Assembly (NCBI GenBank): GCA_017406005.1
Contig: JAFQZI010000167.1
Span: 1-35,373 of the forward strand
Length of the DNA stretch: 35,373 nt
Direction of reading: 5' to 3'
DNA from: Oscillospiraceae bacterium
GTDB lineage: Bacteria > Bacillota > Clostridia > Oscillospirales > Oscillospiraceae
Every line of letters starts with the position of its first letter. The first letter of the stretch is position 1. The position numbers were made by a program, and so were the translations under genes. Under the pieces are notes generated by a model. The model searched no databases and had not been told where the DNA came from. It was given only the letters and a program-made list of their open reading frames with translations. Shown in pieces: positions 2,484 to 19,745 of the stretch.

Positions 2484-2532
2484 TGGTTATGCTTCGATCC
2501 AAAAAATGCAGAAAAAGAAAGGATGACACAAC

Positions 2533-3696: not shown

Positions 3697-3718
3697 GGAA
3701 TCGATTCATACCTACCGA

Positions 3719-3749
3719 CCGCCGGACTTTTCCGGCGGCCTTTTCTTTT
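3719..3749 (+). terminator. intrinsic terminator after the flavoprotein gene
   Basis: An 8-bp perfect stem (CCGCCGGA at 3719-3726, TCCGGCGG at 3731-3738) with a 4-base loop is followed by a T-rich tract (TTTTCTTTT). Confidence 0.85.
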
Positions 3750-3778
3750 ATGAATACAAGAAAAATCCTTCTTGACGG

Positions 3779-3807
3779 TTGCCTTTTTCCTGAAATGATG
3801 TTATAGT
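3779..3807 (+). promoter_or_regulatory. promoter of nifJ
   Basis: TTGCCT (3779-3784), a 17-base spacer and TATAGT (3802-3807) lie about 50 bases before the start codon. A better-looking TTGACG at 3772-3777 is 24 bases from this -10 box, too far to be its -35. Confidence 0.5.
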
Positions 3808-3859
3808 ATATCTGTCTGTTTTGAGGCAGAAATTACTTGTAATGGAGATGAACTAAGCT

Positions 3860-6800
3860 ATGATTGAGCGTCACTTCAAATCGATGGACGGTAACAACGC
3901 AGCCGCCCACGTATCCTATGCATTCACAGAAGTAGCAGCAATCTACCCGATTACCCCGTCCAGCCCGATGGCTGACTATGTGGATCAGTGGTCCGCAGCA
4001 GGCAGAAAGAATCTTTTCGGCAGCACTGTCAAAGTGCAGGAAATGCAGGCTGAGTCCGGTGCAGCAGGCGCTGTCCACGGCAGCCTGAACGCAGGCGCCC
4101 TTACGACGACCTACACCGCATCCCAGGGCCTTCTGCTGATGGTTCCGAACATGTACAAGATCGCCGGCGAACTTCTCCCCGGTGTCTTCCATGTCACAGC
4201 CCGCGCTCTCGCATCCCACACCCTCAGCATTTTCGGTGACCATTCCGACGTAATGGCTTGCCGTCAGACAGGTTTCGCCATGCTGTGCGAATCCAACGTT
4301 CAGGAAGTTATGGACCTCAGCCCGGTTGCCCACCTCGCAGCCATCAAGGGCAGAGTGCCTTTCCTCAACTTCTTTGACGGTTTCCGTACCTCCCACGAAA
4401 TCCAAAAGATCCAGGTTTGGGACTATGAAGACTTTGCCGACATGATCGACATGAAGGCTGTGGAAGAGTTCCGTGCCCGTGCCCTGAACCCGAATCATCC
4501 CACCATGCGCGGCTCTCACGAAAATGGTGATATTTTCTTCCAGAACCGTGAAGCAAGCAACCCCTACTACGAGGCAATCCCCGCAGTCGTCGAAGAGTAC
4601 ATGGGCAAGATCAACGAGAAGCTCGGCACCGACTACTCTCTCTTTAACTACTATGGTGCTCCCGATGCCGACCGCGTCATCGTAGCCATGGGCTCCATCT
4701 GCGACGTTGCAGAAGAAGTGATCGATTACCTCACCGCACAGGGCGAGAAGGTCGGTCTCGTAAAGGTCCGCCTGTTCCGTCCGTTCTGCCCGGATAAGCT
4801 CATCGCAGCTATCCCCGCAACCGCAAAGAAGATCGCCGTTCTCGACCGCACCAAGGAACCCGGCGCCCAGGGCGAGCCTCTCTACCTCGACGTTGTCACT
4901 GCTCTGGCAAATGCCGGCAAGAATGACATCACCGTGATCGGCGGCCGCTACGGCCTCGGCTCCAAGGATACTCCTCCTGCTTCCGTCTTCGCTGTATACA
5001 ACGAACTGAAGAAGGCCGAGATGAAGCGCCAGTTCACCATCGGTATCATTGATGATGTGACCAACCTCTCTCTCGAAGAGACCAAGGCTCCCTCCACCAC
5101 GCCGGCCGGCACCATCGAGTGCAAGTTCTGGGGTCTCGGCGGCGACGGTACTGTCGGTGCAAACAAGAACTCCTGCAAGATCATCGGCGACCATACAGAC
5201 AAGTATGTTCAGGCCTACTTCCAGTATGACTCCAAGAAGACCGGCGGTGTCACCATCAGCCACCTGCGCTTCGGTGACAAGCCCATCAAGAGCCCGTACT
5301 ACATCAACCAGGCTGACTTTGTTGCCTGCCACGTTCCTTCCTACATCATGAAGGGCTTCCCCATTGCCCGTGATGTAAAGCCCGGCGGCATCTTCCTCGT
5401 CAACAGCCAGTGGAACTTCGAGGAACTCGATCATCACCTCGACGCTGCTTCCAAGCGCTACATTGCCAACAACAATGTCCAGCTCTACATGATCAATGCT
5501 ATTGACCTTGCCAAGAAGATCGGCATGGGCAAGCGCACCAACACCATTCTCCAGTCTGCTTTCTTCTCCCTCGCAAAGGTTCTGCCCGAGGCAGAGGCGA
5601 TCGGCTACATGAAGGATGCCGCTCTCCACTCCTACCTCAAGAAGGGCCAGGATGTCGTTGACATGAACTACAATGCCATCGACGCCGGCGCAACCGCCTA
5701 CACGAAGGTTGAAGTTCCCGAGAGCTGGAAGACCGCAGAAGACAAGGCTGCTGAGAGCAAGCACACCGGCCTTGCCAAGACCTTTGAGATGGTCAACAAC
5801 ATTCTTGATCCGGTTGACCGTATGGACGGTGATTCCCTGCCCGTATCCAAGTTCGTTGATCACGCAGACGGCACCTTCCCGCTCGGTGCTTCCGCATACG
5901 AGAAGCGCGGCATTGCAGTTTCCGTTCCGGAATGGAATGCCGACAAGTGCATCCAGTGCAACAACTGTGCATTCGTCTGCCCGCATGCTACCATCCGCCC
6001 GTTCGCACTCAATGCTGAAGAAGCTGCTGCAGCTCCTGCAAACACCAAGCTTGCTGAAATCAAAGTCGGCAAAGGCAAGGGTGAATATCAGTTCTGCATG
6101 GCAGTTTCCCCGAATGACTGCATGGGCTGTGGCGTCTGCATCAGCCAGTGCCCGGTAGGCGCCATCGAGATGAAGCCGCTTGAGAGCCAGGAAGATCAGC
6201 AGCCTGTATTCGATTACATGGTTGCAAAGGTATCCGAGAAGAAGGATATGGTCGCTTCCGACAACGTGAAGTTCAGCCAGTTCGCACAGCCGTATCTCGA
6301 GTTCTCCGGCTCCTGCGCAGGCTGCGCCGAGACAAGCTATGCCCGTCTCGTAACCCAGCTCTTCGGCGACCACATGATGATCTCCAACGCAACCGGATGC
6401 TCCTCCATCTGGGGCGGCCCGGCTGCCACTTCCCCGTACACCGTCAACAAGGAAGGCAAAGGCCCCTCCTGGGCAAACTCCCTCTTTGAAGACAACGCTG
6501 AGCACGGCCTCGGCCTCTACCTCGGCCAGAAGAAGATTCGCGACGATCTCAAAGCCAAGGTTGAAGCCATGATCGCAGCACCCAGCTGCTACTCCGGCCT
6601 TAAGGATGCCGCACAGGCATGGCTCGACACCTACAACGACGGCACCAAGAACCAGGCCGCTTCCAAGGCTCTGATCGCTGCTCTCGAAGAGTGCGTCAAC
6701 AGCATTGACGACACCATCGGCTTCTTCAAGTCCGACGCGGCAAAGTCTGCTTTCGGTGATGCACAGCCCGAGATGCTTGCAAAGGCAGAAGCTGCCAAGG

Positions 6801-7659: not shown

Positions 7660-8583
7660 ATGCTTCATTTTGGATTACTCACCGCAATTCTGGATGGATG
7701 GAATTTTGAAGAAGCGGTCGACACCGCCGCTGAAATGGGCTTTGAATGCCTGGAAGTCGCCTGCTGGCCGGCAGGCAAGGCAGAGAGGCGCTATGCAGGC
7801 GTCTCCCACATTGATGCGGAGCGCGTGCTGGAAGATGATGCCTATGCGGACTATGTAAAAAACTACGTAGAAAGCAAGAGTATGCATATCTCCTCCCTTG
7901 CCTTCTATCCCAATGCCCTGGATTCGGATGTTGCCAAGCGGGAAGCCGCCATCGCCCACCTCAAGGCGCTGATCAAAGCATCCGCCAAACTGGGTGTAGG
8001 CATGGTAACGACGTTTATCGGCCGCGACCAGGCAAAGACTGTTGAGGAAAACCTCGAACTTGTAAAAGAAATCTGGCCGCCGATCATCGCCCTGGCGGAA
8101 GAAAACAACGTCAAGGTCGCCATTGAAAACTGCCCGATGCTCTTCGGCAAAGACCAGTGGCCCGGCGGACAGAACCTCATGTGCACGCCGGCTCTTTTCC
8201 GGAAGCTCTTTGAGATCCTCCCGTCTCCGAACTTCGGCATCAATTTTGACCCGAGCCATTATGTCTGGCAGCAGATGGACTACATCAGGACCATCTATGA
8301 GTTCAAGGATAAGATCTTCCATATCCACTTCAAGGATATCAAGCTCTATCCGGAAAAACTGGCGGAATGCGGCGTGCTGGCCTATCCGCTGGACTATATG
8401 AGCCCGAAGATTCCCGGCCTCGGCGACGTGAACTGGAGCGCATTTGTCTCTGCCCTCAATGACATCCGCTATAACGGGGATGCGGTCATTGAGGTGGAAG
8501 ACAAAGCGTTTGAAGGCAGCAGGGAAGACATCCTCAAATCCATCCGCCTCAGCAAGCACTATCTCGACAACTACATCGGTTAA
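7660..8583 (+). CDS. sugar phosphate isomerase/epimerase-like TIM-barrel protein (xylose isomerase-like)
   Basis: A 307-residue cytoplasmic protein of the AP-endonuclease-2/xylose-isomerase-like TIM-barrel family, which includes sugar epimerases, IolE-type dehydratases and enzymes acting on 3-keto sugars. The expected metal ligands are visible: Glu156 in AIENCP, Asp197 in NFDPSH, His223 in HIHFKD and Glu278 in VIEVED. The frame is open well upstream, even into nifJ, but only the ATG at 7660 has a ribosome site (AAAGGA at 7643-7648) downstream of the promoter; an in-frame ATG at 7639 lacks one. It has its own promoter and terminator. It lies near a ROK kinase, a Gfo/Idh/MocA dehydrogenase and a sugar importer. 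TIM-barrel and Gfo/Idh enzymes often work together on oxidised sugars, so a link is possible. The exact reaction cannot be assigned. Confidence 0.85.
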   Translation: MLHFGLLTAILDGWNFEEAVDTAAEMGFECLEVACWPAGKAERRYAGVSHIDAERVLEDDAYADYVKNYVESKSMHISSLAFYPNALDSDVAKREAAIAHLKALIKASAKLGVGMVTTFIGRDQAKTVEENLELVKEIWPPIIALAEENNVKVAIENCPMLFGKDQWPGGQNLMCTPALFRKLFEILPSPNFGINFDPSHYVWQQMDYIRTIYEFKDKIFHIHFKDIKLYPEKLAECGVLAYPLDYMSPKIPGLGDVNWSAFVSALNDIRYNGDAVIEVEDKAFEGSREDILKSIRLSKHYLDNYIG

Positions 8584-8589
8584 ATCACA

Positions 8590-8620
8590 CGGGAGGGCCT
8601 CACGCCCTCCCGCTTTTATT
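8590..8620 (+). terminator. intrinsic terminator after the isomerase-like gene
   Basis: A 9-bp perfect stem (8590-8598 with 8604-8612, CGGGAGGGC and its complement) with a 5-base loop is followed by CTTTTATT. Confidence 0.9.
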
Positions 8621-8670
8621 CAGCAAAAGATGTATTGCTTTTAAAAAATGTTCTTTGCAGACCGCCTTGT

Positions 8671-8742
8671 CCTCTCGCCTGTCTCGCCCCTTTCGCCCGT
8701 CTCGCCCTCGCTCTGCGCATGCAAAAGTCAGGGCGAAAGGGC
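8671..8742 (+). repeat. short TCTCGCC repeats and an inverted repeat in the intergenic region
   Basis: TCTCGCC occurs at 8673-8679, 8682-8688 and 8700-8706, with a related TTCGCC copy near 8692. GCCCCTTTCGCCC (8686-8698) is nearly complementary to GGGCGAAAGGGC (8731-8742), differing by one extra C, so transcripts from either strand could fold. The stretch lies between two convergent genes and has no coding frame of note. Its function is unknown. Confidence 0.5.
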
Positions 8743-8750
8743 AAAAGATT

Positions 8751-8784
8751 CCCTGTCGGAATGAACAGTCCGGCAGGGCTTTTT
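8751..8784. terminator. probable bidirectional terminator between isomerase and ROK genes
   Basis: CCCTGTCGGA (8751-8760) pairs with TCCGGCAGGG (8769-8778) with one G-T wobble. It is followed on the plus strand by CTTTTT and preceded by AAAAGATT, which gives a weaker U-tract to leftward transcripts of the ROK gene. Confidence 0.65.
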
Positions 8785-8796
8785 ACTATTATGAGA

Positions 8797-9729
8797 TCAT
8801 CGTACCAATTCGGCTGCGCCGATGATGCCGAAATCCTGTTTCAGTTCGGCGAACCGGAAATACACCGGCTGCGGAATATGGTTGTAGCGGTCAAATTCTG
8901 CACGTACTCTGTCGAAAAGCAGGGGGCCGAAATGCGTCAGCCCGCCGCCGAAGACGAACAGATTCACATTCAGCATCTGATAAATGTTGAATACACAGAC
9001 GCCGAGATAGTGCGCCATTTCATCCAGAACCGCCATCGCAAGAGGGTCCTCTTCCCGGCAGGCTTTCAGAAGCGCAACCCCGTCCGGTCTTTTGGACAGA
9101 TCCATTTTGGTATCAAAGGAAGCCGCCTTTTGCAGTACCCTGTCGGGAATGTACTTGCCGGATGCCCAGCTCATAAAACAGCCGCGATTCCGGCAGCCGC
9201 ACTCCAGCCCTTCATCCGGGGTGATCAGCATGTGCCCGGTCTCTCCCGCCCAGCCGTAGCTTCCGCGGAACAGCTCCCCGTTTAAAATCAGCCCGCTGCC
9301 GACACCAGTGCTGGCTGCCATGTAAATCATGTGGCGGCTGCCGCGTCCGGCGCCGAAGCGGTATTCCGCAAGGGCAGCGCAGTTGCTGTCATTGTCCAGT
9401 ACAATCGGGACAGGCAGTCGCTTTGTCAGATAATCCCGCATGGCAAAATCCCGGATATTTTCCATGGCAGACGTCATGCAGATATATCCCTCGTCAAACA
9501 GGATAAAAGATGGCATGCAGACACCGATCCCGCTCAGATCCTCGATTTTCAAGTCCTGCTCCTGCAGCAGTGCCCGGCAGTTTTCTATGATAAGATCTGA
9601 AAACTGCGGGCCGTCTGCCTCGGCAGGTGTGGGGTGCTGCCTTCTGCAGACAAGGTTGTTTTCCTGATCGAAAAGGCCATAGGCGACTTTCGTTCCGCCC
9701 GCATCAATTCCTATTCTGTACGCACTCAT
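8797..9729 (-). CDS. ROK family sugar kinase
   Basis: Cytoplasmic ATP-dependent sugar kinase of 310 residues. DAGGTK at residues 9-14 is the phosphate-binding loop. Asp114 in LDNDSN is the expected catalytic base. GETGH (162-166) with CGCRNRGC (177-184) gives the ROK zinc site: His166, Cys177, Cys179, Cys184. Most ROK members phosphorylate glucose, fructose, allose or N-acetyl amino sugars at the 6-hydroxyl. The gene is 13 bases downstream of the DeoR gene and follows the radical-enzyme activase, reading leftward as one unit. In this context it probably phosphorylates the sugar brought in by the ABC importer at 15136-18968. If the radical enzyme is an anhydrohexitol-phosphate lyase, the kinase substrate would be 1,5-anhydroglucitol or a relative; plain glucokinase is the main alternative. 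Confidence 0.92.
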   Translation of the reverse strand: MSAYRIGIDAGGTKVAYGLFDQENNLVCRRQHPTPAEADGPQFSDLIIENCRALLQEQDLKIEDLSGIGVCMPSFILFDEGYICMTSAMENIRDFAMRDYLTKRLPVPIVLDNDSNCAALAEYRFGAGRGSRHMIYMAASTGVGSGLILNGELFRGSYGWAGETGHMLITPDEGLECGCRNRGCFMSWASGKYIPDRVLQKAASFDTKMDLSKRPDGVALLKACREEDPLAMAVLDEMAHYLGVCVFNIYQMLNVNLFVFGGGLTHFGPLLFDRVRAEFDRYNHIPQPVYFRFAELKQDFGIIGAAELVR

Positions 9730-9742
9730 TTTTATGCCTTTC

Positions 9743-10492
9743 TTATTCCGCTTTTGCTACGCTGATTCCGCGCCGCTGCAATGCCTGCTCTGTCTCAGCA
9801 GGGAGCAACGAGTCCGTAATCACATGCAGGGGTTTTTCCGGAAGTCCAAGCGGAACCACACCATGGCGGGTAAATTTACTGCTTTCGGTAATCACGAAAA
9901 TCCGATCCGCCTTTTCCGCCATATCCCGCACAGCCTGAACACGAAGATGGTCTTTTCCCGTAAACCCGAGTTCCTCGGAATAACCGTCCACCCCAATAAA
10001 GAGCTTGTCGACATAGAACTGCGCAGCGCAGACCTTCAGAATCGGCCCGACCATCACCTGGGCATCCTTCTGAAAGTCTCCCCCGAGGAGGATAATGTTT
10101 ACGCTGCTGTTGTGCCGGATATAGCTTGCTATAAAAGCACTGTTGGTAAGAATCGTAACACCAGGATTTGTTCTGGCAAGCTCCTCTGCAAACAGGGCAC
10201 AGCAGCTTCCGTTTTCAATCATAACCGTCTCGCCGGGGCTCACCAGCGATGCGGCATAACGCGCAATCCGGCGCTTCTCCTCATAATGAACGGCAAGCCT
10301 GTTGTTCAGGTCATCACTGCCTCCGAAAACGGCAAACCCGTGTTCCCGGCGGATAACGCCACGCTTTTCCAGCGTGTCCAAGTCTTTTCGGATAGTAACC
10401 TGTGAGGTCTCGAGCTTTTCCGCCAGGGCAGAAACTTCCATCCGCCCGTTCTCCGCCAGCAATTCCAGAATGAGAGGTTCTCTTTTTTTCAT
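9743..10492 (-). CDS. DeoR/GlpR family transcriptional repressor
   Basis: Sugar-responsive regulator of 249 residues. The N-terminal winged helix-turn-helix (about residues 1-57, with VTIRKDL in the recognition region) is typical DeoR. The C-terminal sensor domain has the family-style segments IENGSC and GVDGYSEE, which normally bind a phosphorylated sugar that releases the repressor. It lies between the activase (63 bases upstream) and the ROK kinase (13 bases downstream), so it probably regulates this cluster. Upstream of it, minus-strand TTACGATT (10523-10530) resembles two 8-mers in the divergent activase/radical-enzyme promoter region, consistent with autoregulation and control of both units. 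The effector is not known; the kinase product is the obvious candidate. Confidence 0.92.
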   Translation of the reverse strand: MKKREPLILELLAENGRMEVSALAEKLETSQVTIRKDLDTLEKRGVIRREHGFAVFGGSDDLNNRLAVHYEEKRRIARYAASLVSPGETVMIENGSCCALFAEELARTNPGVTILTNSAFIASYIRHNSSVNIILLGGDFQKDAQVMVGPILKVCAAQFYVDKLFIGVDGYSEELGFTGKDHLRVQAVRDMAEKADRIFVITESSKFTRHGVVPLGLPEKPLHVITDSLLPAETEQALQRRGISVAKAE

Positions 10493-10555
10493 CGTTTTCT
10501 CTTTTCTTTCGTTTCCTGTTTCAATCGTAACACAGAACCATTTGAAAATCCAGAT

Positions 10556-11326
10556 CTATTTAAAAGAACACGTCAGCCCATACTGTAAGAAAACTTCTCT
10601 GTATTTCTCAAGGTTTTCAGGATGAAGCTGTGGAACTTCCTTCATCTCATAGGGAATACCGAGTTTTTCATATTTGCTCTCGCCCAGCTGATGAAACGGA
10701 AGGAGATGCACTTCCTTCACGCCGATCTCCGAAAGCTTTCCTGCCAGGGCCTCAGCAGCGGAGAAGGAAGCATTAAACCGCGGGATCACGGGAATTCTTG
10801 CGATCACGTCCTTTCCCGTCGTCACAGCATAACGCAGATTTTCGATAATCACATCATTATAGACGCCTGTCCCCCGGAAATGTGCTTCCCTGTCGGCATG
10901 TTTGAAGTCATACAGGAGCAGGTCAATGTGTGCAAGAAAAGCGCGAAACCGTTCCGGAGCCGTGTATCCTTCCGTCTCCGCTGCGACATGGATTCCTTCC
11001 CCATGCGCAGCATCTGCCAGAACGGATGCAAATTCTGCCTGCTGGAGAACATCACCGCCGGAGAACGTCACCCCGCCGCCCGAATGCTCATAAAATGGCT
11101 TATCCTGGCGGACAACCTGCATAACTTCTTCTACTGTATAGGTACGGCCGCAGTACGCAGTCTCATCCATTTTCTCCGTAATAGATGCAAACCGGTTCTG
11201 CGATTCCGGATTGGAACACCATTTGCACTGCAGCGGGCAGCCTTTGAAAAAGACTGTTGTGCGAATGCCCGGGCCGTCATTGATGCTGAATTTCTGTATA
11301 TTAAAGATCCTGCCTGTCAGTTCCAT
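10556..11326 (-). CDS. glycyl radical enzyme activase (radical SAM)
   Basis: Radical SAM enzyme that abstracts a hydrogen from the glycine of its partner enzyme, here almost certainly the radical enzyme encoded divergently at 11505. The SAM-cluster motif CxxxCxxC is Cys30, Cys34 and Cys37, followed by SNPESQ; the SAM-binding GGD is in SGGD at 89-92. The start is taken as the ATG at 11326, because GAGGA lies 7 bases upstream; a GTG at 11344 in frame would make the ribosome site part of the coding sequence. At 256 residues it is short: the insert with two extra 4Fe-4S clusters (eight cysteines) found in most activases of dehydratase-type radical enzymes appears absent, with only Cys59 left in that region. 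In this respect it resembles PflA. Confidence 0.95.
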   Translation of the reverse strand: MELTGRIFNIQKFSINDGPGIRTTVFFKGCPLQCKWCSNPESQNRFASITEKMDETAYCGRTYTVEEVMQVVRQDKPFYEHSGGGVTFSGGDVLQQAEFASVLADAAHGEGIHVAAETEGYTAPERFRAFLAHIDLLLYDFKHADREAHFRGTGVYNDVIIENLRYAVTTGKDVIARIPVIPRFNASFSAAEALAGKLSEIGVKEVHLLPFHQLGESKYEKLGIPYEMKEVPQLHPENLEKYREVFLQYGLTCSFK

Positions 11327-11333
11327 TATCTCT

Positions 11334-11338
11334 TCCTC
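11334..11338 (-). promoter_or_regulatory. ribosome binding site deciding the activase start
   Basis: GAGGA on the minus strand is 7 bases before the ATG at 11326. It favours that start over the in-frame GTG at 11344. Confidence 0.7.
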
Positions 11339-11358
11339 TTTCACTCACTATGTACAGC

Positions 11359-11387
11359 ATTATAACGAATCGTGTGATATTTGTAAA
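11359..11387 (-). promoter_or_regulatory. promoter of the activase-DeoR-ROK unit
   Basis: On the minus strand TTTACA (11382-11387), a 17-base spacer and a consensus TATAAT (11359-11364) precede the activase. The spacer end next to the -10 box contains the small palindrome ACGA-T-TCGT. Confidence 0.7.
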
Positions 11388-11409
11388 GCACTATTTGTTT
11401 TATTCGTAA
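11363..11409. promoter_or_regulatory. candidate operators for the DeoR-type repressor
   Basis: Plus-strand TAACGAAT (11363-11370) overlaps the -10 region of the activase promoter. ATTCGTAA (11402-11409) lies between the two divergent promoters. Together they form an imperfect inverted pair with 31 bases between arms. A similar 8-mer, AATCGTAA, lies upstream of the DeoR gene at 10523-10530. That this regulator binds them is inference. Confidence 0.35.
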
Positions 11410-11437
11410 GTTTTTTTATTATGAACGTAATTTTTTG

Positions 11438-11466
11438 TTGACAGCATTCTTCCTGCAGATTATAAT
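11438..11466 (+). promoter_or_regulatory. promoter of the glycyl radical enzyme gene (perfect consensus)
   Basis: TTGACA (11438-11443), exactly 17 bases, then TATAAT (11461-11466). Both hexamers and the spacing match the sigma-A consensus perfectly, so the gene should be strongly transcribed unless repressed. Confidence 0.85.
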
Positions 11467-11504
11467 AATGCCAGAATGAAAAGAGTGATAAAGGAGAACT
11501 ATCC

Positions 11505-13919
11505 ATGGAACAGAAATCCTCCCGTTTCGGCACGCTGACGCCCCGCATGAAGGCTTATCGCGAGACCCTGCTCTCTGCCAGACCCCAGGTCTGTGCGGAA
11601 CGTGCCATGCTCACCACCGAGAGCTACCGCTTGCATGCAGACAAACCCGTTGTGCTCCGCCGTGCCTATATGCTACAGAATATTCTGGAGAAGATGACCA
11701 TCTATATCGAACCGGAAACCCTTCTTGCCGGGAATCAGGCTTCAACCAACCGCGCCGCCCCGATTTTTCCGGAATATGCGATGGACTGGGTCATCCGTGA
11801 GCTGGATGAATTTGAAAAGCGTGACGGCGATGTTTTCTATATCACCGATGAGACCAAAGAACAGCTTCGAAGCATCTATCCCTTCTGGGAACACAACACC
11901 CTGCTCGACAGGGGGCTCGCCGCAATTCCGCCGGAAAGCCGTGTGTTTTACGATCTCGGCATTATCAAAGCGGAAGGGAATATTACTTCCGGGGATGCGC
12001 ATATCGCCGTAGCTTACGAAACCTTACTGCGGGAAGGGCTGAAGGCGTACGAGGCAAAAACACGCGCATGCATGGCTGCCCTTGACCTGACGGATTGCCA
12101 GAACCTGAAAAAGTATTATTTCTATCAGGCTATTCTGATCGTCATTGACGCACTGCGCGTCTTTGCCGAGCGGTATGCCGCACTGGCAGAAGACCTCTCC
12201 GAAAAGGCGGACCCTGCCCGCGCCTCCGAATTAAAAGAGATGGCACGGATCCTCCGCAAAGTGCCGTATGCGCCAGCTGAAACTCTGCAGGAGGCGGTGC
12301 AGGCGCTATGGCTTACGCATCTCGTGCTGCAAATTGAATCCAACGGACACTCTCTTTCCTACGGCAGGATGGATCAGTATCTCTGGCCATATTATGAAAA
12401 GGATCTCGCCGCAGGCCGTACGGATGAAGAACATGCCTGCGAACTGATGACAAATCTCTGGCTCAAAACTTTCACCATCAACAAGATTCGCTCCTGGAGC
12501 CATACACAGTTCAGTGCCGGCTCTCCCTTGTACCAGAATGTGACGATCGGCGGCCAGACCACGCAGCACAAAGACGCCGTCAATCCCATGTCCTGGCTGA
12601 TTCTCCGCTCGGTGGCGCAGACGCATCTGCCTCAGCCGAATCTCACTGTGCGCTATCATGCAGGCCTGCCCGACGATTTTATGAACGAAGCCGTTGAGGT
12701 GGTAAAGCTCGGTTTCGGGATGCCGGCATTCAACAACGATGAAATCATCATCCCCTCTTTCATCGCGCGCAGTGTGAGGGAAGAGGACGCTTATAATTAC
12801 AGCGCCATCGGCTGTGTGGAAACTGCCGTGCCCGGCAAATGGGGCTACCGCTGCACCGGTATGAGTTTCCTGAACTTCCCGAAATCCCTGCTGATTGCTA
12901 TGAACAACGGTACAGATCCTCAGAGCGGCACAAAGCTGGTCGAAGGCACCGGTCACTTCCGGGACATGACTTCCTATGAAGAGCTGGCACATGCCTGGGA
13001 TGTAATTATCCGCGATTTCACGCGCCACAGCGTCATCATCGAAAATGCCTGTGATATGGTGCTGGAAGAAACCGTGCCGGATGTGCTCTGTTCCGCCCTG
13101 TGTGAGGACTGCATCGGCCGCGGCCTGACCCTGAAAGAAGGCGGCGCTGTCTATGATTATATCAGCGGTCTGCAGGTCGGTATAGCCAATCTGGCGGATT
13201 CCCTTGCCGCGATCAAAAAGCTGGTCTTTGAAGAGAAAAAGCTCACCCCTGCCCAGCTCTGGGCTGCTCTCGAAAGTGACTTCGCCGGAGAAGAGGGCGA
13301 ACGCATTCGCCGTATGCTTGTGAACGACGCTCCCAAATACGGGAACGATGACGACTATGTTGACCGGCTGGTAGTTGATGCCTATGACTCTTATATCGAT
13401 GAAATCCGGAAATACCCCAACACAAGGTTCGGCCGCGGGCCGATCGGCGGCATTCGTTACGCAGGGACCTCCTCCATCTCTGCAAATGTCGGCCAGGGAC
13501 GCGGTACTCTTGCCACGCCGGACGGGCGGCATGCCGGTGAGCCTCTTGCGGAAGGTTGCTCCCCCAGCCACGCTATGGATAAAAACGGACCCACAGCCGT
13601 TTTCAAATCCGTCAGCAAACTGCGCACGGAAGAAATCACGGGCGGAGTTTTGCTCAACCAGAAAGTAACCCCCACTCTTCTTTCCAAAGAAGAGAACAAG
13701 CAGAAACTGATCCTTCTGGTCCGCACTTTCTTCGACCTGCTGCACGGCTACCATGTGCAGTATAATGTAGTGTCCCGCGAGACCATGCTGGATGCCCAGA
13801 TTCATCCGGAAAATCACCGCGATCTGATCGTTCGCGTGGCAGGATACAGTGCTTTCTTCAACGTGCTTTCCCGCCAGACCCAGGATGATATTATTGCCAG
13901 GACAGAGCAAACCCTATAG
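11505..13919 (+). CDS. YbiW-type glycyl radical enzyme, candidate 1,5-anhydrohexitol-6-phosphate C-O lyase
   Basis: Glycyl radical enzyme of 804 residues. The radical glycine is Gly780 in RVAGYSA. The thiyl cysteine is Cys437 in GCVE, with Glu439 as in eliminating (dehydratase-type) members; pyruvate formate-lyase instead has two adjacent cysteines. From memory of E. coli YbiW (810 residues), many blocks are the same or nearly so: KAEGN and SGDAH (His166), ESNGHS, GRMDQYL, AGSPLYQNVTIGGQ, FGMPAFNNDE, GKWGYRCTGMSF, APKYGNDDD and QDDIIARTE. PflD differs at several of these. YbiW is reported to open the ring of 1,5-anhydroglucitol 6-phosphate to 1-deoxyfructose 6-phosphate. The activase is divergent, with ROK kinase and DeoR behind it and a dehydrogenase and sugar importer downstream. 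Family placement is firm; the substrate is inferred, and a related phosphorylated anhydro-sugar is possible. Confidence 0.9.
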   Translation: MEQKSSRFGTLTPRMKAYRETLLSARPQVCAERAMLTTESYRLHADKPVVLRRAYMLQNILEKMTIYIEPETLLAGNQASTNRAAPIFPEYAMDWVIRELDEFEKRDGDVFYITDETKEQLRSIYPFWEHNTLLDRGLAAIPPESRVFYDLGIIKAEGNITSGDAHIAVAYETLLREGLKAYEAKTRACMAALDLTDCQNLKKYYFYQAILIVIDALRVFAERYAALAEDLSEKADPARASELKEMARILRKVPYAPAETLQEAVQALWLTHLVLQIESNGHSLSYGRMDQYLWPYYEKDLAAGRTDEEHACELMTNLWLKTFTINKIRSWSHTQFSAGSPLYQNVTIGGQTTQHKDAVNPMSWLILRSVAQTHLPQPNLTVRYHAGLPDDFMNEAVEVVKLGFGMPAFNNDEIIIPSFIARSVREEDAYNYSAIGCVETAVPGKWGYRCTGMSFLNFPKSLLIAMNNGTDPQSGTKLVEGTGHFRDMTSYEELAHAWDVIIRDFTRHSVIIENACDMVLEETVPDVLCSALCEDCIGRGLTLKEGGAVYDYISGLQVGIANLADSLAAIKKLVFEEKKLTPAQLWAALESDFAGEEGERIRRMLVNDAPKYGNDDDYVDRLVVDAYDSYIDEIRKYPNTRFGRGPIGGIRYAGTSSISANVGQGRGTLATPDGRHAGEPLAEGCSPSHAMDKNGPTAVFKSVSKLRTEEITGGVLLNQKVTPTLLSKEENKQKLILLVRTFFDLLHGYHVQYNVVSRETMLDAQIHPENHRDLIVRVAGYSAFFNVLSRQTQDDIIARTEQTL

Positions 13920-13971
13920 CCGTCAGTTTGTACAACTTGTGTATTTTTATCCCGATTTTCAAGATTCCTGT

Positions 13972-14000
13972 TTGACATTTTCCGTGAAAATTACTATACT
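13972..14000 (+). promoter_or_regulatory. promoter of the dehydrogenase-ABC importer operon
   Basis: TTGACA (13972-13977), a 17-base spacer and TATACT (13995-14000) lie 50 bases before the dehydrogenase start. No terminator is visible after the radical enzyme gene, so read-through from the upstream promoter may add to expression. Confidence 0.8.
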
Positions 14001-14049
14001 ATAGCTATCTTGAGAAGAAACTAAACGCTATGCGGAAGGAGACATCGAT

Positions 14050-15081
14050 ATGTTGAATGTTGCCGTTCTGGGCTGCGGAAAAATTGCCCAGGTTCGCCAC
14101 ATCCCCGAATATGCTGCCAATGAGAATGTACGCCTGGTCGGTTTTTATAACCCCACTTCCAGCAGGGCGGAAGATATGGCAAAAAAATACGGCGGGAAGG
14201 TCTATCTCTCCCCGGAAGAACTGCTGTCCGATCCCGAAGTGGAAGCCGTATCTGTCTGCTCTGCCAACTATGCTCACGCTTCCCTTACTATTGCCGCGCT
14301 GGAAGCCGGCAAGCATGTGCTGTGCGAAAAGCCCATGGCCACCACGGAAGAAGACTGTGAAGCCATGCTGGCTGCCGCAAAGAAATCCGGCAAACGCCTG
14401 CTGATTGCGCAGAATCAGCGCCTTGCAAAAGCACACGAGAAGGCGAAGGAGCTTCTGGATGAAGGATTGATCGGCAGCGTTATCACCTTCCGCACAACCT
14501 TCGGCCACGGCGGGCCGGAAACCTGGTCTATCACGCCGGGCAAAAACACCTGGTTTTTCGACAAGAAGCGTGCCGCTATGGGAGCCATGGCAGATCTCGG
14601 CATTCACAAGACGGACCTGATCCGTTACCTCCTCGGAAAAGATGTCGCCCGCACCACCGCACGCCTCACGACGCTGGATAAGCGCGGCCCGGATGATGAG
14701 CTGATCGATGTGGATGACAATGCCATTTGCATCTATGAGATGGAAGGCGGAGCAATCGGAACCATGACCGTCAGCTGGACGTATTACGGAGCGGAAGACA
14801 ATTCCACCATCCTCTACGGTACAAAAGGCATCATGCGCATCTATGACGACCCTGCACATTCCATCGTAGTCAAACTCGCCGACGGCACGGAAAAGACCTA
14901 CGATGTGGAACAGATTCAGACCAACGACAACCAGACGGCTTCCGGCGTCATTGACGAATTTGTCGCCGCTGTGGAAGAAAACCGGTCGAGCATCCTGGAT
15001 GCAGAAGGCGTCATGAATTCCATGAAGGCCGTTTTCGCCAGCATCAAATCGAGCGAAACCGGAGCTCCGATAACTGTTTAA
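14050..15081 (+). CDS. Gfo/Idh/MocA family oxidoreductase
   Basis: NAD(P)-dependent sugar or polyol dehydrogenase of 343 residues. The N-terminal Rossmann domain has GCGKIA at residues 8-13. CEKP at 92-95 contains the conserved Lys94, and DLGIH at 182-186 supplies the usual acid/base residues (Asp182, His186). The C-terminal half is the alpha/beta substrate domain. AAGGAGA precedes the ATG. It is the first gene of the importer operon, suggesting it acts on the imported compound. The family includes 1,5-anhydro-D-fructose reductase as well as inositol, glucose-fructose and 3-keto-glycoside enzymes. Beside a YbiW-like enzyme, interconversion of anhydrofructose with anhydroglucitol or anhydromannitol is an attractive guess, but the sequence alone does not specify it. 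Confidence 0.9.
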   Translation: MLNVAVLGCGKIAQVRHIPEYAANENVRLVGFYNPTSSRAEDMAKKYGGKVYLSPEELLSDPEVEAVSVCSANYAHASLTIAALEAGKHVLCEKPMATTEEDCEAMLAAAKKSGKRLLIAQNQRLAKAHEKAKELLDEGLIGSVITFRTTFGHGGPETWSITPGKNTWFFDKKRAAMGAMADLGIHKTDLIRYLLGKDVARTTARLTTLDKRGPDDELIDVDDNAICIYEMEGGAIGTMTVSWTYYGAEDNSTILYGTKGIMRIYDDPAHSIVVKLADGTEKTYDVEQIQTNDNQTASGVIDEFVAAVEENRSSILDAEGVMNSMKAVFASIKSSETGAPITV

Positions 15082-15084
15082 CGG

Positions 15085-15108
15085 TAATAACTGTAAATCC
15101 AGTTGTTA
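15085..15108 (+). other. small hairpin between dehydrogenase and binding-protein genes
   Basis: TAATAACTG (15085-15093) pairs with CAGTTGTTA (15100-15108) with one G-T wobble and a 6-base loop. No U-tract follows, so it is more likely an mRNA processing or stability element than a terminator. Confidence 0.4.
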
Positions 15109-15135
15109 TAAAAAATCTATATTTGGAGGAAGATT

Positions 15136-16230
15136 ATGAAGAAAATTCTCGCAATCGCACTCGCACTCTGCATGGTATTCGCCCTCTGCGCTGTATCCGC
15201 ATCCGCTGACGGAAAGACCATTTATGTTCTTGGTCCTACCCCTGACCATGGCTGGACGGCTCAGGCCGGTGCCTACGCCCAGGCAAAATGCGAAGAGATC
15301 ACCGCTGAAGGCACCTACAAAGCTGTCTACATCCCCGCATCCTCCGGTGAAGAGCAGGTTGACCAGATTAACACCATCGTTGCAAACGGCGATGCCGCTA
15401 TCGTTGTTATGATGGCTCTGGATGATTCCGCTCAGGCTGGCCAGGAAACCCTCTACGCAGAAGAAATCCCCTTCATCTCCTTCGACCGTATCATTGAAGC
15501 CACCGAAGCTTACGCTGCTCTGAACTACTCCGGCAACAACTGGGAGTGCGGCGCCGGCATTGCTTACTGGCTCCAGAAGAACGGCATGCAGCCGGGCGAC
15601 ACGGTTGTTGTCCTCTACGGTGATAACGGTACCGTTTGCTCCCGCCGTCAGGAAGGCTTTGAGCAGTTCCTCCGCGGCGAAATGAAGTACTCCGACCTGA
15701 ACGCCGGTGAGTTTGAGACCACCCAGGTCTGGGAGCAGGCAGACATCGACAACATCTTCAACGGCTACACCGTCGTCTGCAACTGGTCCGCTGATGGCGC
15801 TTACGGCTATATCGAGCAGAAATTCGATGAAATCGTAGCTGCTGCCAAAGCAAATACCGGCAAGCTCTACATCTACTCCATGGACGACGAGATGACCTTT
15901 GGTGTTCTCAATTACCTCCAGGCAGGCGCATCTGCAGAGACGCTCGCTGATACCGAAGCTCTCGAACTCTACATCTCCGCTATCGGCGGTATGCAGGAAC
16001 TCTACAATGTCATGGCCGGTACGGATGAGAAGAGCGAACTCGCTGAAAAGTACTTTGATGACATGATGTCCGTCTCCTTCAACCCGAAGATGATGCAGTC
16101 CGCTATCCAGTTTGGTGTTGACTACGTCAACGGCAACTGGGACTTTGAGACCGGCTCCGGTTCCTATGAGCCCGTCTTCATCGTTGACCGCACCAACGCT
16201 GCAGAAGTAGAAGGCTTCCAGGGTCACTGA
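15136..16230 (+). CDS. sugar ABC transporter substrate-binding protein (ribose/galactose type)
   Basis: Extracellular sugar-binding protein of 364 residues, of the periplasmic-binding-protein type I family (RbsB/MglB-like). A clear signal peptide ends near residue 24 (SASA/DG). There is a cysteine at residue 18, but Leu at the preceding position does not fit a lipobox, so membrane anchoring by lipid is not supported. The mature part starts with the typical strand and glycine region (IYVLGPTPDHGW) and shows the expected domain-crossing pattern. GGAGGA precedes the ATG. Codon use is strongly biased, matching an abundant binding protein. A hairpin downstream separates it from the ATPase and permease genes and probably sets its higher expression. 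The ligand cannot be read from the sequence; context suggests a hexose-like or anhydro-sugar. Confidence 0.92.
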   Translation: MKKILAIALALCMVFALCAVSASADGKTIYVLGPTPDHGWTAQAGAYAQAKCEEITAEGTYKAVYIPASSGEEQVDQINTIVANGDAAIVVMMALDDSAQAGQETLYAEEIPFISFDRIIEATEAYAALNYSGNNWECGAGIAYWLQKNGMQPGDTVVVLYGDNGTVCSRRQEGFEQFLRGEMKYSDLNAGEFETTQVWEQADIDNIFNGYTVVCNWSADGAYGYIEQKFDEIVAAAKANTGKLYIYSMDDEMTFGVLNYLQAGASAETLADTEALELYISAIGGMQELYNVMAGTDEKSELAEKYFDDMMSVSFNPKMMQSAIQFGVDYVNGNWDFETGSGSYEPVFIVDRTNAAEVEGFQGH

Positions 16231-16270
16231 TCCTTCTAATTCTCTGCTTCTCTGAGGAAAAAACAACCAT

Positions 16271-16314
16271 GCGGATGCAGGCCATTCCTGCATCCGCACC
16301 CTTTATGATTTTTT
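16271..16314 (+). terminator. hairpin, probable partial terminator between binding protein and ATPase
   Basis: A perfect 11-bp stem (16271-16281 with 16287-16297) with a 5-base loop. A T-run occurs only about 11 bases later (16309-16314). It may act as a leaky terminator or as protection against 3' decay, giving more binding protein than ATPase and permease. Confidence 0.6.
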
Positions 16315-16386
16315 ACAGTTATTACACCATTCCTCCAGTATCACAACAAGTATTAAACCGCACACAAATTAAGGGAGACCGCGTTT

Positions 16387-17895
16387 ATGACAATCCTTGA
16401 GATGAACCATATTTCCAAGGCATTCGGCGGAGCAAAAGCCCTCTCAGATGTTCATATTTCCGTGGAAAAAGGCGAAATTCACGCACTTTTAGGGGAAAAC
16501 GGAGCAGGGAAAAGCACCCTGATGAATATCCTGACAGGCGTACTTCCTGCCGATGAGGGCTCCATCACCTTCCTTGGGAAACAGTATCCAAGCCCTACCA
16601 TCCAGCAGATGGAGGCTGCAGGCATTGCCTTTGTGCATCAGGAGCTGAATGTCATCAATGACCTCTCTGTTTCTGACAATATTTTTCTCTGCCGTGAGAT
16701 CAAGGACAAGCTCGGCCTGATCGACCACAAAGAACAGCTCAAGCGCACACGACAGCTGTTTGACAATCTCGGAGTGGATATCAATCCGACCGTCATGGTT
16801 TCCGAGCTGAAAACGAGCGAAAAGCAGCTTCTGGAAATCTGCCGTGCACTGTATGCAGATGCCCAGCTGCTGATTCTCGACGAGCCGACGACTTCGCTCT
16901 CCAACAACGAAATCGATCACCTCTTCGGCATCCTCCGCAAACTGCGTGATCAGGGGAAATCCTTTATTTTTATTTCCCATAAGATGCCTGAGGTCTTTGC
17001 GATCTCTGACCGCTATACGGTATTCCGCAACGGCGAATTCGTCGCTTCCGGAAATATCAGCGACACCAATCCGCATGAAATAACCTCTTACATGGTCGGC
17101 AGGCAGTATGCGGATGAAAAAGTCTATGAATCCCGCCCCCTCGGTGATGTGATTGTTAAGCTCGAAAACTACACCGGGGAAGGATTTGAAGATATCAATC
17201 TGGAAGTCCGGCGCGGAGAAATCATTGCCTTTACGGGCCTGGCAGGCTGCGGTGCTTCCGAACTGATGCAGACGATGTTCGGGGCCCTTCCTTCGACCGG
17301 CGGCAGCTTTTCCGTCAACGGGAAAATGCTGGACGGTTCAATCGTCAGCTTCATGAAAAATTCCGTCGCCATGCTTCCCTCCAACCGGAAGGAGAATTCC
17401 GTGGTGCCTGACATGAGTATTATGGAAAACTTCTATCTGGCGGAGCATGAGATTTCCAAACGGAAAAAGCCTTTTATCAACATGAAAGAAGAGCTCGCCC
17501 GCTATTCCGCCCAGAAAGAAGCGCTCCGCATCAAGGCGGGAGATTCCTCTGACAGCATTTCATCCCTCTCCGGCGGAAATCAGCAGAAGGTCTTTCTGGC
17601 AAGATGGCTGAACATCGGGGCAGATCTTCTCCTCTTTGATAACCCGACGCAGGGCGTTGACGTCGGAGCGAAGGAAGAAATATACAAGCTCATCCTCAGC
17701 TTTGCACAGCAGGGAAAAACCGTTATCATCAACACCCTAGAAATTCCTGAAATTCAGAAAGTTGCAGACCGCTGCGTTGTTTTCTACGAGGGTAAAATCG
17801 TAAAGATATTCGAGCACAACGAAGTGAATGAGCACAACGTTATGATGTATTCTACCAATGCTATTGAGACAATTCGGGAGGCACAGAAACCATGA
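16387..17895 (+). CDS. sugar ABC transporter ATP-binding protein (RbsA/MglA type, two ABC domains)
   Basis: Energises uptake of the sugar bound by the preceding gene product; cytoplasmic face of the membrane. It has 502 residues with two ABC domains, the usual family design. The first domain has Walker A at 36-44 (GENGAGKST) and Walker B with Asp165-Glu166. The second has a degenerate P-loop (GLAGCGASE) and a good signature (LSGGNQQK). Its Walker B reads FDNPTQGVD, with Asn419 where the catalytic glutamate normally sits, so only one site is likely to hydrolyse ATP efficiently. Degenerate second sites are common in this family. GGGAG precedes the ATG. The stop codon overlaps the permease start by 4 bases (ATGA). 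Confidence 0.95.
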   Translation: MTILEMNHISKAFGGAKALSDVHISVEKGEIHALLGENGAGKSTLMNILTGVLPADEGSITFLGKQYPSPTIQQMEAAGIAFVHQELNVINDLSVSDNIFLCREIKDKLGLIDHKEQLKRTRQLFDNLGVDINPTVMVSELKTSEKQLLEICRALYADAQLLILDEPTTSLSNNEIDHLFGILRKLRDQGKSFIFISHKMPEVFAISDRYTVFRNGEFVASGNISDTNPHEITSYMVGRQYADEKVYESRPLGDVIVKLENYTGEGFEDINLEVRRGEIIAFTGLAGCGASELMQTMFGALPSTGGSFSVNGKMLDGSIVSFMKNSVAMLPSNRKENSVVPDMSIMENFYLAEHEISKRKKPFINMKEELARYSAQKEALRIKAGDSSDSISSLSGGNQQKVFLARWLNIGADLLLFDNPTQGVDVGAKEEIYKLILSFAQQGKTVIINTLEIPEIQKVADRCVVFYEGKIVKIFEHNEVNEHNVMMYSTNAIETIREAQKP

Positions 17896-18968
17896 ACAAC
17901 AGTTTCGGAAAAAGACTGGGCAGAGTCTGGAGCCAGTACAGTTACATCTTTGTCCTGCTGATTATCATGATCGGCTACGCAATTACCATCCAGTCCAACG
18001 GCAACACCTTTAAATTCAGCCATATAGCAGCCATTCTCGGCAGCCAGAACACCTGTATCGTCGGAACGATCGCATTGGGCATGGCCTTTGTCATCATCAC
18101 CGGACAGATCGATCTTTCAGTCGGCTCCTCTCTGGTTCTGTGCACAGGCGTCACCATTGTTGTGTTCAATATGACGGGCTCTATCATTCTCATGATCCTT
18201 GCCGCACTGGTGACCGGTGCTCTCTGCGGGCTCATCAACGGGCTGCTGGTCGGACTCGGCAAAATGCCTCCTTTCGTTGTTACGCTCGGCACGATGCTGA
18301 TCTACCGTTCGCTCACCCTTTCTGTCGTGCGTAAGATTGACCCTGCTATCAGCGGATCCTCCTCCAGCCAGTTCGCCATGATCAGCAAAAAGGTCAATTA
18401 CAACTTCCTAAGGATGAAGTTCGGGACCGGCAAGCTGAAATTCGGGTCTTTCTCTATCCCGTACATCTTCTTTGTTTTCCTGCTTGTAGCTATTCTGCTG
18501 ATCATTGTCTCCCGAAAAACCAAGTACGGCAAGAGCGTCTATGCAGTCGGCTCCAATGAAAAGAGTGCGCGTCTGGCAGGCATCAATGTCACATGGGTGA
18601 AGATTTCCGTGTTCGTCCTTACCGGCGTGCTGGTAGGCATCGCTTCTATTCTCCAGGCATGCAAGATCGGCAATGTCACACCGGCTTCCTCCGGCCAGAG
18701 CTATGAGATGTACGCCATCGCCTCTGTTGTGCTGGCAGGCGTCAGTATGGCGGGCGGCAAGGGCAATATGCTCGGCGTTATTTTCGGCGCACTTTCCTAT
18801 ACGACGATCAACTTTATCATTGTCTCCATCCCGGGGCTCAGCGTCGATATTCAGGATACCTTCCAGGGCCTCGTGCTGATCATTGTTATTCTGATCCAGA
18901 CAGCAGGCCCGGCCATCAAGGAGAGCTTCCAGCGTTCCAGAAAGCGCCGCCTTGCCTCTGCAAAATAA
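17892..18968 (+). CDS. sugar ABC transporter permease (RbsC/MglC type)
   Basis: Membrane channel of the importer; a single permease of 358 residues, probably working as a homodimer with the double ATPase, as in ribose systems. There are about eight to ten hydrophobic segments, beginning with one around residues 15-33. A conserved family block lies near GQIDLSVGSS, and the typical cytoplasmic loop YGKSVYAVGSNEKSARLAGI-like region lies about two thirds along. The ATG overlaps the end of the ATPase gene by 4 bases, implying translational coupling. It is the last gene of the operon, followed by a strong inverted repeat. Family membership is clear; the substrate is inferred only from neighbours. 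Confidence 0.94.
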   Translation: MNNSFGKRLGRVWSQYSYIFVLLIIMIGYAITIQSNGNTFKFSHIAAILGSQNTCIVGTIALGMAFVIITGQIDLSVGSSLVLCTGVTIVVFNMTGSIILMILAALVTGALCGLINGLLVGLGKMPPFVVTLGTMLIYRSLTLSVVRKIDPAISGSSSSQFAMISKKVNYNFLRMKFGTGKLKFGSFSIPYIFFVFLLVAILLIIVSRKTKYGKSVYAVGSNEKSARLAGINVTWVKISVFVLTGVLVGIASILQACKIGNVTPASSGQSYEMYAIASVVLAGVSMAGGKGNMLGVIFGALSYTTINFIIVSIPGLSVDIQDTFQGLVLIIVILIQTAGPAIKESFQRSRKRRLASAK

Positions 18969-19109: not shown

Positions 19110-19745
19110 TTATTTTTTCTCGCCCGTGATGAAAACACGGTTTCCGTGATGAGAGAGCCTGCCCTGACAGTAGAGTGAGAGGGCTTCGATCATCAGCTTG
19201 CACTCGGCCTCCTCCGTCACGCGGCTGCGGAGCGTTCCAGGTGTATCCTCAGGATATACCGTAATGGCTTTCTGCTGGATAATGCTGCCGACCATTCCGT
19301 CATTATCGGCGAAATAAGCCGTCGCTCCGGTGATCTTCACCCCGCGCTCCAGAATGGCCTGGAACACTTCTCCCTCCGGGACCTCCTCAAAAGCAGGGAT
19401 GAGGCACGGGCATGTACCGACAATCCGGTTTTTGTACTGGAAAGGAATTACACCAAGTTCAAGATTATATCCTGCCAGGATAACCAGATCGATATCCATA
19501 TCCCGAAGCTTATTCGCTACTGCCATGCTGTGACTTGTCATATTCGGAAAGAGCTCCGGATCCACCACAAAAGCCGGAACGCCTGCGCCTGCAGCACGCT
19601 TCATTGCCTTGGTGTTCCTCTCCGGAGAGATAACGGCAACAAGTTCAAAATTCGGAATTTCCTTAAAATAAACCGCGTCAAGAATCGCCTGAAGCTTACT
19701 GACATCCCCAGACACAAGCGCCGCTGCCCTGACCAAAACCGTCAC
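19110..19745 (-). CDS. PurN-like formyltransferase-fold protein with altered active site
   Basis: A 211-residue protein with the fold pattern of phosphoribosylglycinamide formyltransferase (PurN): VSGDVSKLQAI at the N-terminus corresponds to the phosphate-binding SGxGSNLQAI, LAGYNLEL to the LAGFMRIL segment, and the C-terminal half aligns with ITGATAYF, DNDGMVGSII and RVTEEAE. However, the catalytic segment that reads NIHPSLLP in PurN is GTCPCLIP here (110-117 region: Gly110, Cys112). The essential Asn and His (E. coli Asn106, His108) are therefore missing, while the Asp equivalent to Asp144 (Asp149) remains. Ordinary GAR transformylase activity is unlikely. The first codon is GTG at 19745; a TTG at 19736, with AGGTGA 5 bases upstream, is an equally plausible start. 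No purine genes are nearby. The true role is unknown. Confidence 0.8.
   Translation of the reverse strand: MTVLVRAAALVSGDVSKLQAILDAVYFKEIPNFELVAVISPERNTKAMKRAAGAGVPAFVVDPELFPNMTSHSMAVANKLRDMDIDLVILAGYNLELGVIPFQYKNRIVGTCPCLIPAFEEVPEGEVFQAILERGVKITGATAYFADNDGMVGSIIQQKAITVYPEDTPGTLRSRVTEEAECKLMIEALSLYCQGRLSHHGNRVFITGEKK

Follow-up and report, generated by a model that had tools for sequence, protein, structure and literature searches.

How could a predicted ring-opening glycyl radical enzyme for 1,5-anhydroglucitol be supplied with substrate at a locus in which no phosphotransferase system (PTS) was matched? The question is raised by contig JAFQZI010000167.1 of an Oscillospiraceae bacterium (assembly GCA_017406005.1), whose full 35,373 nucleotides we call the window. 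A first-pass annotation of this DNA had proposed a route for 1,5-anhydro-sugars built on an ATP-binding cassette (ABC) importer, a ROK kinase and a YbiW-type radical enzyme. We find this interpretation partly supported by sequence comparison and hold, with a probability of roughly 70%, that the core of the cluster (ROK kinase, DeoR-family regulator, activase, radical enzyme and ABC importer) feeds the YbiW reaction independently of the PTS. In this scheme 1,5-anhydroglucitol would arrive through the importer in unphosphorylated form, the ROK kinase would phosphorylate its O6, and the radical enzyme, primed by its activase, would open 1,5-anhydroglucitol-6-phosphate to 1-deoxyfructose-6-phosphate, with divergent promoters probably under DeoR control. 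The substrate, the kinase reaction, the regulation and any part of the neighbouring Gfo/Idh and TIM-barrel proteins in the pathway are what we infer from the comparisons that follow.

The radical enzyme and its divergent module

The radical enzyme (11505-13919, + strand; 703 bits with the PFL-like profile and 113 bits with Gly_radical) is, by sequence, of the YbiW type and is predicted to be a 1,5-anhydroglucitol-6-phosphate lyase. It carries the glycyl loop RVAGYS, the thiyl cysteine in GCVE and the active-site motifs of YbiW, has a linked activase beside it, and shows 52% identity with E. coli YbiW as against 37% with PflD. Its best solved relatives are 6xs4, which bears the name formate C-acetyltransferase (897 bits), and two YbiW chains (884 bits), with glycerol dehydratase (580 bits), diol dehydratase (561 bits), CutC (at most 499 bits) and PflD (481 bits) scoring lower. 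In a tree of 90 rows, YbiW groups with the window enzyme and its 82 relatives, and this group is separated from PflD and four PflD-like proteins (Shimodaira-Hasegawa-like approximate likelihood-ratio test, SH-aLRT, 99). The active-site segments, which were picked from glycerol-dehydratase anatomy and not from substrate contacts in the YbiW structure, are identical to YbiW in the aligned rows and unlike PflD in each segment compared. The relatives without a linked ROK gene conserve 232 columns that they have in common with YbiW. At 18 of these columns some ROK-linked enzyme deviates, and at 13 of the 18 the deviation is confined to a single member.

The YbiW-type assignment made in the first-pass annotation is thus supported, and none of the three refuting conditions named there (another functional branch, active-site residues unlike YbiW, no conserved kinase and importer beside the enzyme) was borne out at the sequence level. 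The functions of PflD, HypD, CutC, glycerol dehydratase and sulfopropanediol dehydratase were rejected on the solved-structure scores, the tree and the NCBIfam equivalogs, which for CutC, HypD and the sulfopropanediol dehydratases stayed far under their cut-offs.

The enzyme reads on the + strand out of an intergenic region (11345-11504) from which the activase (10556-11344), the DeoR-family regulator (9743-10492; 136 bits) and the ROK kinase (8797-9729; ROK family, 192 bits) read on the - strand. The activase, a radical SAM protein of 262 aa, scores 281 bits with NCBIfam PFLE_PFLC (cut-off 174). It has a single CxxxCxxC motif and five cysteines in total; YbiY has 299 aa and eleven cysteines. 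Being shorter and poorer in cysteines, the activase seems to be without the extra iron-sulfur insert.

Sigma-70-like matches lie on both strands of the intergenic region, one of 12/12 on the + strand (11438-11466) and one of 11/12 on the - strand (11387-11359), and the scan of the region gave three matches where 0.9 were expected. The region also holds TTCGTAAGTTT at 11403-11413, a possible regulator site. This element recurs just upstream of the -35 box in loci L003 and L097, where TTCGTAAGTTT and then TTGTTGAC immediately precede the enzyme gene. The window's single match does not exceed chance (expectation 0.44 when one mismatch is tolerated), and therefore only its repeated placement is suggestive.

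The ROK kinase and the surroundings of YbiW-type enzymes

We compared 83 loci of YbiW-type enzymes, namely the best 80 of 590 from a genome scan plus the window, L097 (same genus) and L098 (same order), taking up to 10 kb on either side of the enzyme and counting ROK proteins at 120 bits or more. A ROK gene lies near the enzyme in 15 of them. Fsa accompanies 1 of these 15 loci versus 46 of the 68 others (Fisher's test, 1.5e-5), whereas a CUT2 ATPase accompanies 6 of the 15 versus 3 of the 68 (p 8e-4); one of those three is L007, whose contig could not show a ROK gene. When only the 57 loci that extend 3 kb upstream and 1 kb downstream of the enzyme are counted, Fsa accompanies 1 of 10 ROK-linked loci versus 37 of 47 others. 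PTS proteins were seen in none of the 15 and in 16 of the 68 (p 0.064), a count that may be too low because the references were E. coli proteins and three proteins taken from the loci.

The window itself gave no match to 21 PTS references or, in a second round, to their matches, and has an ABC importer and a ROK kinase instead. Together with the recurrence of kinase and importer beside the enzyme in relatives, this agrees with the earlier idea that the two stand in for PTS entry. The ROK label needs at least eight changes on the enzyme tree. L048 has an enzyme nested among Fsa-linked ones, yet its ROK kinase, DeoR regulator and activase are 65-67% like those of the window, and in L098 the genes for ROK, enzyme and Fsa are consecutive. 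From this nesting and this gene row, we argue that kinase-fed and PTS-fed enzymes would share one substrate.

Sugars of the 1,5-anhydro class have no 1-OH, and the window ROK protein, a candidate 1,5-anhydroglucitol 6-kinase, differs from its family at a position bearing on that group. All 15 linked kinases retain the GGT loop, the catalytic ND, ExGH and the zinc cysteines of ROK sugar kinases such as glucokinase, NagK and NanK, but all 15 carry GC-[FLYV]-M in place of the GC-x-E/D found in most ROK kinases. For comparison, 12 genomes gave 73 ROK matches, of which 30 were taken; nine of these proved to be linked kinases, and the remaining 21, the controls, have Glu (16), Asp (2), His (1), Asn (1) or a gap (1) at this position and never Met. 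In human GNE the corresponding residue, Glu588, belongs to a putative sugar-binding set of five (PMC2742894). In Plesiomonas shigelloides NagK, Asp187, mapped onto the Met position by counting along the alignment, engages the 1-OH of the sugar, and the D187N exchange brings kcat/KM down from 2.1 to 0.26 per µM per s (PMC10031466). The proposed kinase role is strengthened by this loss of the 1-OH-contacting residue from every linked kinase examined.

The linked kinases, 44-79% identical to the window kinase, form one clade with a single unlinked member (L132, with Asn; SH-aLRT 97), and L125 (with His) comes next. L132, the ROK protein inside the enzyme-linked clade, is encoded at G002:C16:15305-16243.

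The same protein could instead be a glucokinase or a glucoside 6-kinase that serves the Gfo/Idh-TIM-barrel pair and not the radical enzyme. Its best solved relatives are indeed ROK glucokinases (144 bits), and the acid is also lost in 4htl, a structure whose record is named beta-glucoside kinase. Yet the window kinase reaches 190 bits where the cut-off for ROK glucokinases is 260, Met stands in all 15 linked kinases, their clade contains a single unlinked control, and 13 loci combine a ROK gene and the enzyme although the pair was unmatched there. We judge this alternative very unlikely.

Some of these loci show further genes. A second cassette lies in L005 from 1713, in L006 from 2909, in L045 at 15390-17780 and in L030 at 2515-4653. 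It comprises a PflD-like radical enzyme (41-42% identical to PflD), seen in L005, L006 and L045, and a kinase-like protein of 600 aa, KIN15, seen in all four and with a DIGGTD motif in L030; KIN15 found no match in Pfam, NCBIfam or PDB sequences. The cassette is possibly a kinase-fed counterpart for anhydromannitol. A D-lyxose isomerase family protein adjoins ROK in L005 (6899-7579; PF07385) and has a homologue in L025 (7998-8684), and a 7-bladed lactonase lies beside ROK in L004 (5908-7065), with a homologue near ROK in L025.

The Gfo/Idh-TIM-barrel pair, the importer and the neighbourhood

Downstream of the enzyme, on the same strand and after a gap of 130 bases, follow a Gfo/Idh/MocA dehydrogenase (14050-15081, + strand; 118 bits) and a complete CUT2-type importer of three genes: a substrate-binding protein (15136-16230, + strand; 61 bits), a dual ATPase of the AraG/XylG/RbsA type (16387-17895, + strand; 172 bits) and a permease (17892-18968, + strand; 151 bits). 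At the other end lies a TIM-barrel protein (7696-8583, + strand; AP_endonuc_2, 129 bits), so that the ROK-enzyme module is flanked on its two sides by the TIM-barrel and Gfo/Idh genes; the start codon at 7696 was picked by eye, in a region first delimited from 7660. Each gene named in the first-pass annotation was thus recovered, with family matches across 7696-18968. The whole order is kept in L097 of the same genus (identities: ROK 79%, activase 80%, enzyme 90%, Gfo/Idh 91%, TIM barrel 91%), and its second half also in L007, whose contig starts inside the enzyme.

What might the dehydrogenase and the TIM barrel do? The closest solved relatives of the Gfo/Idh protein are DgpA (118 bits), 6a3f (109 bits), which we take to be levoglucosan dehydrogenase, and glucose-fructose oxidoreductase (102 bits). 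A role as 1,5-anhydrofructose reductase was considered; that enzyme (2glx) comes tenth at 96 bits, outscored by these three, and the sequence does not decide. The TIM barrel matches 2zds, named a putative DNA-binding protein (66 bits), and weakly 2-hydroxy-3-keto-glucal hydratase (29 bits); a fold prediction made without relatives was of poor quality (predicted local distance difference test, pLDDT, 59.9).

Each of the two genes occurs in 10 of 41 same-genus genomes (own included), though not in an identical ten, and they are adjacent in six same-genus genomes that have no radical enzyme (G043, G055, G056, G069, G073 and G074), with identities to the window pair of 70-72% for Gfo/Idh and 82-85% for the TIM barrel. 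In three of the six (L150, L151 and L155), the pair is joined by a second Gfo/Idh gene and by a C-glycoside deglycosidase with its two subunits. For L155, the alpha subunit matches the E. cellulosolvens DfgA structure at 529 bits and the beta subunit matches PF19906 at 128 bits; both recur in L150 and L151 at 88-94% identity. These dfg-type clusters, in three same-genus genomes, span 1124-5716 in L155, 6523-10995 in L150 and 8403-12972 in L151. In the other three (L152-L154), the pair accompanies an importer (ATPase 43-47% like that of the window) together with a second TIM barrel and a second Gfo/Idh, and L157 has a CUT2 importer with the pair and without the radical enzyme. The idea that the TIM barrel always belongs with the radical module was rejected, because it is present in eight same-genus genomes where the enzyme gave no match at E 1e-150.

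Because the pair is adjacent in six enzyme-free genomes and stands beside deglycosidase subunits in three, its members look like enzymes of glucoside 3-oxidation, and the earlier proposal that they are extras for oxidised or epimeric substrates was not supported. We presume, from gene order and not from comparison with any Dfg C or D sequence, that they correspond to DfgC and DfgD. Like the Dfg/Dgp C-glycoside and Lgd levoglucosan clusters (PMC8563793, PMC11170127, PMC10628242, PMC7676230), the window combines a Gfo/Idh-TIM-barrel pair with a sugar importer, and close relatives of its pair lie in deglycosidase clusters of the genus. It differs from them in having a radical enzyme and a kinase; neither deglycosidase subunit was matched in the window, L097 or L007, the only parts of these genomes searched for them. 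DfgCD cleaves O-glucosides (PMC11170127), and such pathways are described in PMC10628242 and PMC7676230 as passing via 2-hydroxy-3-keto-glucal, a 1,5-anhydro sugar, to glucose.

The cluster could be two unrelated neighbouring modules. A glucoside module of importer, Gfo/Idh and TIM barrel would import glucosides and cleave them to glucose, and ROK, DeoR, activase and radical enzyme would separately handle anhydroglucitol that enters otherwise, a view that shares our proposal for kinase and enzyme and parts from it on the role of the importer. It gains from the six enzyme-free genomes, in three of which the pair stands behind an importer with a 43-47% like ATPase, and from 13 of the 15 ROK-linked loci, several of them on contigs of just 5-7 kb, in which neither gene of the pair was matched at the thresholds used. 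It is harder to square with the short one-strand gap between enzyme and Gfo/Idh gene, with the order kept whole in L097, with the enclosure of the ROK-enzyme module from two sides and with the recurrence of importers of this class beside ROK-linked enzymes. We consider it possible but somewhat unlikely.

A bolder proposal would join the two halves into one new route, in which beta-elimination of glycosides feeds radical ring-opening and not hydration to glucose. Gfo/Idh and TIM barrel would oxidise a glucoside at C3 and eliminate to 2-hydroxy-3-keto-glucal, reduction would give 1,5-anhydroglucitol, and the Met-type ROK kinase and radical enzyme would then break it down. The idea is drawn from 2-hydroxy-3-keto-glucal as the shared 1,5-anhydro intermediate and is, in our estimate, quite unlikely; if true, it would explain a microbial origin of anhydroglucitol and why the genes sit together.

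With one further gene, the family matches extend to ten genes between 7696 and 19745. The tenth is a PurN-like formyltransferase gene (19110-19745; PurN 102 bits, below the cut-off of 150), which in L007, L097 and L142 is likewise found next to a histidine-phosphatase/GNAT fusion. The cluster looks accessory within the genus, since the enzyme was found at E <= 1e-150 in 4 of the 60 genomes searched (its own, 2 of 36 of the same genus and 1 of 23 from elsewhere in the order). No empty insertion site common to relatives was established: G041 alone had the POR-side and the 19.9-kb-side neighbours on one contig, with other genes and in another orientation.

Downstream steps and what the assembly may mean

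Reportedly, Ma et al. described in 2024 (doi 10.1021/jacs.4c07718) an anhydroglucitol pathway of E. coli made up of YbiW, YbiY and FsaA. The window resembles it in the YbiW-clade enzyme, the linked activase and the active-site motifs. It differs in having an ABC importer and a ROK kinase where bacterial breakdown, that of E. coli included, is described in a review (PMC12441222) as PTS-dependent, and adds a DeoR module, Gfo/Idh and TIM barrel. With the E. coli PflD/FrwBCD/FsaB/GldA locus it shares a glycyl radical enzyme for an anhydrohexitol phosphate (PMC12441222), although PflD is the more distant enzyme in identity and in each active-site segment compared. A further difference from E. coli concerns the next step. 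The first-pass annotation had noted that the window holds no Fsa-type aldolase, which is borne out, and had suggested looking in the rest of the genome for such an aldolase and for a GldA-type dehydrogenase.

Several observations weigh against our reading. Searched in all six frames and with the window as part of it, the genome gave no Fsa/transaldolase (PF00923) member, an absence that is likely but not certain because the genome is 92.9% complete (6.6% contaminated); PF00923 was also unmatched in 15 same-genus genomes, and the same search was positive in 10 of 14 control genomes and gave two matches in G098. Ten matches to iron-containing alcohol dehydrogenases occur in the genome, and the eight compared with GldA are 24-32% identical to it where aligned, at 56 bits at best. 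With no PF00923 member and only distant relatives of GldA, the Fsa/GldA route as described appears to be missing here, as judged from sequence. The importer is unlike that of L003, L004, L014 and L048 (ATPase 33-39% identical, with a different binding protein) and may carry glucosides, because its closer analogues (43-47%) adjoin the Gfo/Idh-TIM-barrel pair without the enzyme. As to the kinase, the Listeria ROK structure 4htl has Asn at the Met position (PMC5458393), so that the lost acid equally fits a sugar with a substituted O1, and NagK Asp187 is not conserved in one orthologue (PMC10031466); the linked kinases being related, their 15 of 15 Met would reflect one change kept and not 15 events. 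The enzyme tree came from a quick search, with YbiW and the PflB outgroup on long branches. Finally, the locus tests ignore kinship among loci that are closest relatives and in some cases short, and 18 of the 83 show none of ROK, Fsa and PTS.

The missing aldolase also bears on the substrate. Among the 15 ROK-linked genomes, PF00923 gave no match in seven, a weak one (30 bits) in one and matches of several lengths in the other seven. Such gaps would suit an enzyme whose substrate is another phosphorylated anhydro sugar of this kind, such as anhydromannitol- or anhydrogalactitol-6-phosphate, or an enzyme that acts before phosphorylation. We regard this as unlikely, in that the motifs agree with YbiW and not PflD, and both the ROK-enzyme-Fsa row of L098 and the module swap of L048 point to one substrate.

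A literature search joining anhydroglucitol and ROK returned the review PMC12441222 alone, with the primary 2024 paper beyond its reach, and searches combining anhydroglucitol with "glycyl radical enzyme", or for "anhydroglycolysis", found no match in the text they covered. The YbiW route itself is known from E. coli, and we expect that the kinase-fed, ABC-importer assembly is probably the new element. Its presumed substrate has a wider bearing: publication abstracts describe 1,5-anhydroglucitol as a marker for diabetes, and its 6-phosphate accumulates in neutrophils in two inherited diseases (PMC12441222). The comparison exposes a gap, in that 7 of the 15 carriers are without a member of the known aldolase family, and puts forward a candidate sugar kinase marked structurally by one residue. 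The predicted kinase-fed version occurs in genomes titled Clostridia, Lachnospiraceae and Treponema, and it would widen the range of organisms that might use 1,5-anhydroglucitol.

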